A stretch of 64,000 nt of DNA, taken from NCBI RefSeq assembly GCF_014645555.1, contig NZ_BMLY01000011.1, positions 1 to 64,000 of the forward strand. Reading direction: 5' to 3'. The position numbers were made by a program, and so were the translations under genes. Origin of the DNA: Silvimonas amylolytica (GTDB taxonomy: Bacteria; Pseudomonadota; Gammaproteobacteria; Burkholderiales; Chitinibacteraceae). Within the stretch, counting starts at the first letter, position 1. Each line of letters opens with the position of its first letter. The notes beneath the pieces are model-generated. The model did no database searches. It was not told the DNA's origin and worked only from the letters and a program-made list of their open reading frames with translations. Below are positions 50,002-52,530 of this stretch, one piece after another.

Positions 50002-51255
50002 ATGCAAAGCAAGAACATCATGCGTGGCGCCCTGGTGGCTGCGCTGTTGGCTGCAGGCGCTGCCCAAGCCGGCACCCTGACCATCGAAAGCTGGCGTACC
50101 GACGACAAAGGCCTGTGGGAAGAAGTGCTGATCCCGGCTTTCCAGAAGCACTATCCGAACATCCAGATCAAGTTTGCCCCGACCGCCCCGACCGAATACG
50201 ACTCCAGCCTGAATGCACGCCTGACTGGCGGCACCGCCGGTGATCTGATCACCTGCCGTCCGTTCGACAAGTCGCTGGATCTGTACAAGAAAGGTTACCT
50301 GGAAAAACTGAACGGCAAGAAGGGTCTGGAAAACTTCCCGGCATCGGCCAAAGTGGCCTGGGAAACCGACGATGGCAAGGACACCTTCTGCGAACCGATC
50401 GCTTCTGTGATCCATGGTTTCTTGTACAACAAGAAGATTTTCAAGGAACTGGGCCTGACCGAGCCGAAGACCACCGACGACTTCTTCAAGATGCTCGACA
50501 AGGTGAAGGCTTCCGGCAAGTACACCCCGATGGCACTGGGTACCAACGATCAGTGGGAAGCCAGCCAGATCGTTTACACCAGCATTGGTGCGCCGTACTG
50601 GAAGGGTGAAGAAGGTCGCAAGGCGCTGATCGCCGGCAAGGCCAAGTTCACCGATCCGGCATTCGAGCAACCGCTGGAAATCGAAGCCAAGTACGCACCG
50701 TACCTGGCCAAGGGTTACAGCGCTCAAACCTACCCGGATACCCAAAACCTGTTTGCCTCCGGCAAGGCTGCCGTGGTTGCTGCTGGTTCGTGGGACATTG
50801 GTTACTACAACCAGAACGCCGCCGGGTTCGAGCTGGGCGCTTTCCCGCCTCCCGTACCGAAGGCTGGCGACAAGTGCTACATCTCTGACCATACCGATCT
50901 GGGCATGGGCGTGAACAGCAAGTCCAAGAACAAGGACGACGCCTACAAGTTCGTGGAATGGCTCGGTTCGCAAGAGTTTGCTGACCTGTACACCAACAAG
51001 GTCACTGGCTTCTTCAGCCTGTCCAACCATCTGATCGCTGTGAAAGATCCGGTTGCCAAGGAATTCCTCGACTGGCGCAAGACCTGCGGTTCCACCATCC
51101 GTGTGAACGCGCAGATCCTGAACCGTGGCACGCCGAACCTGGAAAACGAACTGTGGAACGTGAACTCGCAAGTCCTCAACGGCAAGCTGTCGCCGAAGGA
51201 TGGCGCTGCGCGTCTGCAGTCCGGTCTGGCCAAGTGGTACAAGCCGGCTCAGTAA
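50002..51255 (+). CDS. CUT1-type ABC transporter sugar-binding protein
   Basis: A 417-residue periplasmic solute-binding protein. The signal peptide ends ALLAAGAAQA, followed by GTLTIESWRTDDKGLWEEVLIPAFQKHYP, a typical family-1 start. Tryptophans and aromatics such as GSWDIGYYNQ and NDQWEAS match sugar-stacking positions. It belongs to the CUT1 oligosaccharide group but differs in sequence from the GtsA-like protein encoded divergently, so the two probably bind different ligands. The sugar is unknown. Lysine and alanine codons look strongly biased (AAG, GCC/GCT), suggesting high expression. A strong terminator follows before the permeases, which would give excess binding protein. Confidence 0.93.
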   Translation: MQSKNIMRGALVAALLAAGAAQAGTLTIESWRTDDKGLWEEVLIPAFQKHYPNIQIKFAPTAPTEYDSSLNARLTGGTAGDLITCRPFDKSLDLYKKGYLEKLNGKKGLENFPASAKVAWETDDGKDTFCEPIASVIHGFLYNKKIFKELGLTEPKTTDDFFKMLDKVKASGKYTPMALGTNDQWEASQIVYTSIGAPYWKGEEGRKALIAGKAKFTDPAFEQPLEIEAKYAPYLAKGYSAQTYPDTQNLFASGKAAVVAAGSWDIGYYNQNAAGFELGAFPPPVPKAGDKCYISDHTDLGMGVNSKSKNKDDAYKFVEWLGSQEFADLYTNKVTGFFSLSNHLIAVKDPVAKEFLDWRKTCGSTIRVNAQILNRGTPNLENELWNVNSQVLNGKLSPKDGAARLQSGLAKWYKPAQ

Positions 51256-51408
51256 TCTGAGTCAGCCATTTGCAGTATTCAGGCGGTCGAGTGGCGGGGT
51301 TCCCATGAATCTCGCCCGACCCGATGCGACGGAGACGTATCGGGTTTGTCGGCGGCCTGGTGTAGTAGTCAGTTGTTCTTCCTCTCCATACCCTCGACTG
51401 TGAGTTAG

Positions 51409-51437
51409 GCCGGCGGTTCGCCGCCGGCGTTTTTTTT
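51409..51437 (+). terminator. Strong terminator between binding-protein and permease genes
   Basis: GCCGGCGG-TTCG-CCGCCGGC is a perfect 8-bp stem with a UUCG-type tetraloop, followed by GTTTTTTTT. It lies 154 nt past the binding-protein stop and inside the transporter operon, so the permeases would depend on read-through or a second promoter. Confidence 0.88.
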
Positions 51438-51494
51438 GGTTGTTTCGCCCGAGGCCATTACGGCGTTCTGGCGCGCATTAGATAAACAAATAAA

Positions 51495-51600
51495 GAATCA
51501 CCGACAAAACACGAGTGCCGCGGCACCCGCCAGGGCGCAGACAGTACCAGTGGTACGGCAAGCCCGGGCAACCAAGGTAATCGTGTTTTGTCGGTGATTC
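51495..51600 (+). repeat. 106-bp structured inverted-repeat element before permease gene
   Basis: A perfect 20-bp inverted repeat, GAATCACCGACAAAACACGA at 51495-51514 with its complement at 51581-51600, encloses 66 nt. The inner part holds three smaller palindromes: GTGCCGCGGCAC (51515-51526), GTACC-AGT-GGTAC (51544-51556) and GCCCGGGC (51562-51569). As RNA it could fold into a multi-branched structure ending 2 nt before the AGGGAG ribosome binding site of the permease at 51616. No target-site duplication is obvious. It could be a mobile miniature element, an mRNA-stabilising structure or a regulatory RNA. Confidence 0.75.
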
Positions 51601-51615
51601 ATAGGGAGCAAGGCC

Positions 51616-52530
51616 ATGAAACGGAAGTTTCCCTGGCATATCGTGGTCTTTCTGGCCCCGGCATTTCTGATTTACCTGGTTTTCAGCGCCTGGCCGCTGA
51701 TCGATACCCTGCGACTGGGGTTCTTCACTACCAATGACAATGGCTCCCAAACCTGGGCCGGTCTTGCCAACTACCATTCCCTGCTGTTCGATCCGCTGTG
51801 GTCAGAAGGCTTCTGGAATGCCATGAAGAACAACTGCAAGTTCTTCCTGGTGCATATGTGCATCCAGAACCCGCTGGGTCTGTTGCTGGCTGCCCTCTTG
51901 TCCATGCGTGGCGTGAAGTTTGCCAAGGGCTATCAGACTGCCATTTTCCTGCCGACTCTGCTCTCAGTGGTGATCATCGGTTTTATCTGGCAATTGATTC
52001 TTTCCCCGCTGTGGGGCGTATCAGAAAAGCTGCTGGGTCTGGTTCATCTGGACAGTTTGTTCCAGCCTTTCCTGGGTCAGGAAGAGACCGCGCTGTATAC
52101 GCTTTCGGCCATGTCAGTCTGGCAGTTTGTTGGCATCCCGATGATGCTGATCTATGCCGCACTGATCGCGATCCCGGATGAAATCATCGAAGCCGCCTAT
52201 GTGGAAGGCGCATCAGCCTGGCGCATTTTCTGGACCATCCGCGTGCCGCTGATTCTGCCAACGCTGGGCCTGACCACCATTCTGACTTTTGTCGGCAACT
52301 TCAACGCGTTTGATTTGATTTACTCGGTCAAGGGCGCGCTGGCTGGCCCCAATTTCAGCACAGACATTCTGGGCACCTACTTCTACCGCGCCTTCTTTGG
52401 CTATCAAAGCCAGATCGGCAGCCCGACCATGGGCGCCGCCGTGGCCACACTGATGTTCCTCGTGATCCTGTTTGGTGTGGGCGTGTATTTCTACTTTATC
52501 CAGCGCAAGCTGCAACGCTTCAGTTTCTAA
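51616..52530 (+). CDS. CUT1-type ABC transporter permease (MalF-like)
   Basis: A 304-residue inner-membrane permease with six predicted helices. The ATPase-contacting EAA loop is EAAYVEGASAWRIFWTIRVPLILP. It starts at the ATG at 51616 with AGGGAG upstream, directly after the structured inverted repeat. The first helix is WHIVVFLAPAFLIYLVF. It pairs with the next permease (gap 16 nt), and the ATPase gene follows. The sugar is unknown. Confidence 0.94.
   Translation: MKRKFPWHIVVFLAPAFLIYLVFSAWPLIDTLRLGFFTTNDNGSQTWAGLANYHSLLFDPLWSEGFWNAMKNNCKFFLVHMCIQNPLGLLLAALLSMRGVKFAKGYQTAIFLPTLLSVVIIGFIWQLILSPLWGVSEKLLGLVHLDSLFQPFLGQEETALYTLSAMSVWQFVGIPMMLIYAALIAIPDEIIEAAYVEGASAWRIFWTIRVPLILPTLGLTTILTFVGNFNAFDLIYSVKGALAGPNFSTDILGTYFYRAFFGYQSQIGSPTMGAAVATLMFLVILFGVGVYFYFIQRKLQRFSF

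Follow-up and report, generated by a model that had tools for sequence, protein, structure and literature searches.

In Silvimonas amylolytica, a perfect inverted repeat lies between the gene of a solute-binding protein and that of an ABC-transporter permease, and the question raised by this locus is whether the repeat is a mobile element, a regulatory RNA of the permease gene, or neither. The preliminary description of the window (the whole stretch of 64,000 nucleotides analysed, contig NZ_BMLY01000011.1, positions 1 to 64,000) had offered the first two as alternatives. We report that both hold in part. The hairpin is a member of a dispersed family of elements of about 114 nt, and this family has the core of the Correia elements (CREE/NEMIS) on other termini. 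The comparisons between sister species described below bear on what became of the copy in front of the permease gene.

Sequence analysis

The covariance model (R1) was built from 18 copies (alignment A1) with the window copy excluded, and one of the 16 pairs was dropped in building. Between 15 and 150 first-look candidates were scored per genome, and all R1 counts are therefore lower bounds. Shuffle and binomial values overstate significance because the copies are related. The permease locus was compared in four Silvimonas species, namely the window genome, S. terrae (G002), G001 and G003. Correia repeat patterns were taken from the accessible text of PMC2649163. The empty-site test was performed on 27 copies (14 from the window genome, without the window copy, and 13 from S. 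terrae), whose orthologous places were located via a joined query; this gave 47 comparisons with G000, G001 and G002, and places in G003 were left out.

Structure of the hairpin in the permease leader

The features of the locus are listed in Table 1.

Table 1. Coordinates of the hairpin and its neighbouring features in the window
Feature	Coordinates	Strand	Remarks
Solute-binding protein gene (PF01547), upstream in operon	50002..51255	+	
Terminator-like hairpin with T run, after the binding-protein gene and ahead of the element	51409..51436	+	Four Silvimonas genomes have it, three of them in identical form
Correia-core mobile repeat, degenerate copy	51495..51600	+	Covariance-model R1 match 51507-51587
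Outer-stem left arm	51495..51519	+	Exact over its first 20 nt, extending to 25 nt with mismatch; matched by compensatory changes in G001 and G002
Conserved core GCGCAGACAGTACCAGTGGTACGGCAAGC, with terminal GUAC hairpin 51544-51556	51535..51563	+	Recurs in relatives; 84% over 37 nt to Correia element L375
Outer-stem right arm	51576..51600	+	Pairs with left arm, compensatory changes
Ribosome binding site AGGGAG of permease gene	51603..51608	+	
ABC-transporter permease gene (PF00528)	51616..52530	+	

The arms 51495-51514 and 51581-51600 are exact complements over 20 bp with a 66-nt spacer, and with mismatches tolerated the pairing extends to 25 bp (51495-51519/51576-51600, 92%). At the GC content of the window, 1.3e-5 perfect 20-bp repeats with an offset of at most 150 nt would be expected in 64 kb. 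Three palindromes can be read inside the element, GTGCCGCGGCAC at 51516-51527, GTACC-agt-GGTAC at 51544-51556 and GCCCGGGC at 51562-51569. Only 2 nt separate the right arm from the ribosome binding site, and the permease ATG at 51616 follows 15 nt after the end of the arm. On the 20-bp repeat, its inner palindromes, its distance from the ribosome binding site and the terminator ahead of it, the preliminary description was accurate. It had also envisaged a multi-branched RNA; the predicted fold of 51485-51615 (-60.8 kcal/mol, z -7.7, with none of 200 shuffles as good) is instead one long interrupted hairpin.

The permease protein is 99% identical to its S. terrae counterpart. A scan of 51240-51640 returned no sigma-70-like promoter, and no T run follows the right arm on the plus strand. 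Both results count against attenuation or termination of transcription ahead of the permease gene, a role to which the terminator-like sites flagged within the element, all on the minus strand, might otherwise point, and which we consider very unlikely.

Three Silvimonas genomes share without any difference the stretch 51371-51440, which runs before and through the terminator (TTGTTCTTCCTCTCCATACCCTCGACTGTGAGTTAGG, hairpin, T run), and in some other genera it can still be recognised (CTTCCTCT, TCGACTGTG), its unpaired part included. Its Rfam matches were weak and far under the cut-off. Conserved in this way, the stretch might correspond to a small RNA derived from the binding-protein 3' UTR.

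A dispersed family of elements

When the window genome was searched by DNA identity, the window copy was found alone as a strong match. Taken by itself as a family test this search was misleading, since R1 then gave at least 16 matches in the same genome at E <=0.1 and at least 10 at E <=1e-8. Copies elsewhere, which according to the preliminary description would support a mobile element, were thus numerous once the covariance model was used. At least 40 R1 matches were found in S. terrae. The window copy itself scored 52.5 bits (E 6.9e-11 in the genome search, 1.1e-12 in a separate run). Its middle 29 nt matched at E <=0.01 in 18 of 41 genomes, the window genome included. R1 matches at E <=1e-3 occurred in at least 37 of 61 genomes, comprising the window genome and its relatives. 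In the order they were found at E <=1e-8 in at least 58 of 300 genomes, again with the window genome included, from 18 families. In the class they were found in at least 6 of 274 genomes, namely the window genome, two others from its order and three from outside that order, each of these three with a single match. The lack of a strong second copy in the DNA-identity search would suit a chance or neutral palindrome outside any family; that reading is refuted by the model match, the small number of such repeats expected and the compensatory changes described below, and we give it practically no credence.

The copies share a plan of complementary outer arms, then P2, then GCAGACA-GUAC-loop-GUAC-GGCAAG, and the core of the family reads GCAGACAGTAC-N-GTACGGCAAG. 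The preliminary description had taken the outer arms to be fixed. They in fact differ in sequence between places yet remain complementary, over a median of 21 bp (range 10-36) and with a median span of 114 nt in 136 copies. In A1, 96.4% of the pair cells were paired, 10 of the 16 pairs changed on both sides, and covariation was 0.470 as compared with at most 0.110 in slid controls; the GUAC helix gives no covariation support because it is invariant in this alignment. Covariation on 86 distinct model-fitted rows was 0.225 against at most 0.051 for the slid controls, and the number of pairs changed on both sides in this set was 8, against 9 in one slid control (+2).

No Rfam family was found over the element in the window at E <=1, in 20 loci at the gathering threshold or in 6 loci at E <=0.1. 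A phage search gave no match with either the family query or a Correia query, and a plasmid search gave 6 records. Two N. gonorrhoeae records, NZ_CP119140.1 and NZ_CP119142.1, are of chromosome size (about 2.17 Mb) yet stand in the plasmid collection. Integron attC sites were considered on account of their box motifs and then set aside. REP/RAYT elements were set apart by their length and core, from description only; they are hairpins of 20-40 nt with a GTAG or CGTC tag, often accompanied by a RAYT gene, according to the accessible text of PMC3733652.

At L180 (1501-1812), at L239 (1501-1932) and in G015 (C11:56565-56972) the element stands in tandem arrays that repeat about every 106-117 bp. 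In the variant copies L097, L106, L118 and L119, the left half is swapped for a stretch ending CGGACTTCCTTCGG directly before the core. Two glycine riboswitch aptamers and an SAH riboswitch were seen near one copy in G003 (L093, 1354-1681 and 2544-2608).

Relation to Correia elements

A named element of N. gonorrhoeae that carries the Correia repeat as published, with an exact Correia pattern, gave an R1 score of 57.2 bits, and C. metallidurans CH34 gave one of 82.2 bits. Five genomes of the family f44 gave at least 10, at least 84, at least 57, at least 3 and at least 4 matches at E <=1e-6; the exact published repeat pattern stood at the ends of 6 of the 20 f44 loci inspected, and also at L400. 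The element L375, which has exact Correia ends, matched two N. gonorrhoeae records, one at 98.3% over 92% of the query and the other at 100% over 87%, at no fewer than 40 places in each; the gonococcal stretch scored with R1 belongs to one of these two records. Its match to C. metallidurans (84.9% over 42% of the query) covers the core, with which the window copy also aligns (Table 1). Because R1 matches the gonococcal Correia element and the window copy aligns with the core of L375, the family has a Correia core. The preliminary description knew of no named element with this layout; a named relative exists in the Correia repeat enclosed element of Neisseria. The window copy is not a classical CREE, because its ends differ: they read GAATCACCGACAAAAC, and the 26-bp Correia repeat (TATAG[CT]GGATTAA...) does not stand there.

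In the accessible text of a 2009 account, the 26-bp Correia repeat is described as confined to Neisseria spp. and the mobilizing mechanism of Correia elements is given as undetermined (PMC2649163). No report of the Correia core outside Neisseria was found in the literature searched, in which subscription journals were thinly covered. The same core in 18 families of the order (300-genome sample), with some copies resembling an IS5-family element in their ends and target duplications, brings both the Neisseria-only claim and the question of mobilization within reach of direct test.

Mobility and a possible IS5-family partner

At 18 of the 27 loci of the empty-site test, at least one sister genome had fewer than 80 nt between the aligned flanks. 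Precise junctions were seen at L148, where the element is missing in two sisters and TTA stands on both sides, and at L154, where TCA stands on both sides and the empty site reads TTA. Extra bases are present at many of the other junctions, several flank alignments end 20-86 nt short of the element, and some empty sites may be deletions.

Target duplications were counted in 91 distinct copies with recognisable type-A (GAGC-type) ends, the commonest termini of the family; these copies passed out of 163 given (the 143 copies of the family set and 20 chosen by hand). Identical 3-mers flanked 22 of them (TAA 8, TTA 8, TCA 3, CAA 2, TGA 1), against a permutation mean of 7.1 and a maximum of 17 in 2000, and the remaining 69 carried none. 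TNA targets are a mark of the IS1031-like subgroup of IS5. At the window copy, flanked by AAA and ATA, no target duplication is recognisable.

The genome G041 contains one 866-bp IS5-family element with DUF4096 and DDE_Tnp_1 in two overlapping frames; NCBIfam NF033580 scored over the cut-off for the second frame and reached 108 of 110 bits for the first. The 16-bp ends of this element (GAGCCGCTAACAAAAC), with TTA on both sides, are identical to those of several family copies, such as L184 and L187, and by pattern check the core is absent from it. In B. glumae, a relative whose second frame is 81.5% identical has the ends GAGCCGCTAACACAAC and GAGTCGCTAACACAAG, also with TTA on both sides, and the copy L131 of the window genome starts GAGCCGCTAACACAAC. 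The first transposase frame was found at E 1e-15 in one of 61 genomes (G041) and in none of the four Silvimonas genomes. The DUF4096 family occurred in 3 of 10 genomes searched, and by pattern check its members in G008 and G009 are without the ends.

As in a MITE, the family has many dispersed copies, and orthologous sites that lack the element are seen; ends shared with a transposase-coding element are seen for type-A copies and are not recognisable in the window copy. On the mobile-element reading, the preliminary description is partly upheld by the dispersed copies, by the sister genomes that lack the element at orthologous places, by 3-bp duplications at part of the copies and by the IS5-family element with the same ends.

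The same core is carried on other termini in other genera and families. Of five copies in G297 (L342-L346), all with GAGGGTGTGAAAAA-type ends, four are followed by a similar TAGGGTGGGCGG or CAGGGTGGGCGG sequence, as if they had been inserted into another repeat.

Gene setting and strand bias of the copies

As judged with an in-house hexamer gene caller trained on the window, and not from annotation, 69 of 143 copies have their right end at -16 to +12 nt of the stop codon of an opposite-strand gene. The left end is likewise placed at the stop codon of a same-strand gene in 11, of which 3 show both arrangements, and 15 copies lie inside a called frame. The window copy, directly before a same-strand start, is of a rarer kind.

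Mismatches in the arms were counted without the loci L180, L239 and L212 and without arms shorter than 14 bp, and among the 2719 pairs there were 130 G.T mismatches against 42 A.C, with 156 mismatches of other kinds. G.T exceeded A.C at 22 pair positions and fell below it at 6, and the numbers by setting were 27 to 10 for sense, 48 to 19 for antisense and 55 to 13 for other copies. For g3 alone the difference (18 to 8) was not significant (P 0.08). This excess of G.T over A.C suggests that, as the copies spread, selection acted on the folded form of the plus strand, either RNA or single-stranded DNA; strand-biased mutation may be an alternative source. A broader proposal is that the Correia core is an order-wide structured module on several sets of termini (GAGCSGCTRACAAAACCC, TATAGYGGATTAA, GAGGGTGTGAAAAA, AAGTAACNGTACAAAA and others), that the element spreads only if its plus strand folds, whether RNA or single-stranded DNA, and that the G.T excess is the trace of this need. 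We put this forward as speculative and rather doubtful. If true, the repeat would be a hitch-hiking structure that recruits different transposases and not a plain remnant of one.

Fate of the element at the permease locus

At the orthologous locus the core is lost in S. terrae and decayed in G001, and the outer stem is kept in both; in G003 the left arm is lost, so the stem is dispensable there. Comparison with G001 over 24 arm pairs showed 11 unchanged, 9 changed on both sides and still paired, 3 changed on one side and still paired, 1 that gained pairing and none broken. Against S. terrae, 20 pairs were unchanged, 2 had changed on both sides and 1 on one side with pairing retained, 1 was unpaired in both species and again none was broken. 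Hypergeometric P values for coincident changes in both arms were 9e-5 (G001) and 0.01 (S. terrae). Once the 24 gaps and any pairs already open in the first sequence are excluded, all 15 changed pairs at the permease locus still pair, as compared with 50 of 98 in 15 comparisons at 11 other loci. Because the core has decayed while these pairs kept their pairing, the stem looks selected; to judge by these sequence comparisons, selection probably maintains it in three of the four species for a function in the host. A second orthologous copy, L138 compared with L309, has 10 of 10 changed pairs still paired, with 4 further pairs gapped, and is a candidate for another host-kept stem.

Long quasi-palindromes are prone to template-switch correction, and the matched changes could have arisen in that way in a mobile element that is functionless at the permease locus, one arm being rewritten from the other. 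Such correction is established, and the arms of the dispersed copies, complementary yet different in sequence, agree with it, as do the loss of the stem in G003 and the pairs likewise kept at L138. Under this explanation, however, one would not look for the difference between the permease locus (0 of 15 changed pairs broken) and other orthologous copies, which often lose pairing (48 of 98), and if arms were corrected as DNA, wobble-type G.T mismatches would not be expected to outnumber A.C (130 to 42). We regard a functionless copy as unlikely.

In the last 120 nt before the start at 80 permease loci, the hairpin was found only at the S. terrae locus, and some inverted repeat scoring at least 12 was present at 10 of the 80. 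A general permease-leader element is thereby ruled out. The regulatory RNA suggested in the preliminary description is partly supported: compensatory changes in the outer stem are seen in situ in two sister species and not in the third, and conservation of the hairpin within Silvimonas does not extend to permease orthologues in general.

Proposed role in permease expression

The best explanation as a whole, which we favour with some reserve, is that a Correia-core repeat was inserted before the permease gene and its stem then kept as an RNase III-type leader hairpin setting permease expression. Insertion of a non-autonomous repeat would date back to an ancestor shared by at least three Silvimonas species, with the binding-protein terminator on one side of the target and the ribosome binding site for the permease on the other. 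The core has since decayed (G001) or been deleted (S. terrae), while matched changes kept the outer stem of 20-25 bp. In transcripts reading through from the binding-protein gene, the arms would pair into a long RNA duplex shortly ahead of the ribosome binding site for the permease, and an RNase III-type double-strand nuclease may cut or bind it. The permease message would in this way be parted from the binding-protein message, with its 5' end and stability fixed, and the permease would be made at a set, lower level. Such a role for the window hairpin is likely by analogy with Correia hairpins in mRNA, which RNase III binds and then cuts or protects, as stated in the accessible text of PMC2649163 and PMC2229807. 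A second separating device is not obviously needed, because the terminator already parts the two genes.

The hairpin might also act without being cut: it may stabilise the permease message at its 5' end or insulate it, for instance because the ribosome binding site stays unpaired or because 5'-end-dependent decay is blocked. The stem stops short of the ribosome binding site and leaves it outside, in keeping with such a role, but its 20 to 25 pairs are a sufficient length for RNase III, and we think a stabiliser rather improbable. The permease locus probably also illustrates how a repeat of this kind can live on as a hairpin in host RNA once the core has degenerated.

Comparison with known systems

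The closest system is the CREE, with which the family shares the core, the order of helices, a length near 105 nt and a long inverted-repeat hairpin. In the accessible text of PMC2649163, CREE are likewise mostly intergenic, present in many copies per genome and placed before genes where the hairpin can enter the mRNA. They differ in their 26-bp Correia repeat (TATAGYGGATTAA...), which is missing from the window copy; here the core stands on different termini, the commonest of which, type A, come with TNA-type duplications. The IS5-family element of G041 resembles type-A copies in its 16-bp ends and TTA duplication, and differs from them in its 866 bp, in coding for transposase and in being without the core. 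ERIC/IRU, as described in the accessible text of PMC2229807, is a 127-bp intergenic palindromic mobile repeat with an orientation-dependent effect on mRNA stability; it differs in target duplication and core, as judged by that description and not by sequence. RUP of Streptococcus pneumoniae is, from the same text, a small element having its ends and target site in common with a full-length insertion sequence, the proposed mover being IS630-Spn1 (PMC2229807); the text gives RUP no additional signature of structure or function. The likeness to the type-A copies lies in that partnership, and the difference in the insertion-sequence family, which here is IS5.
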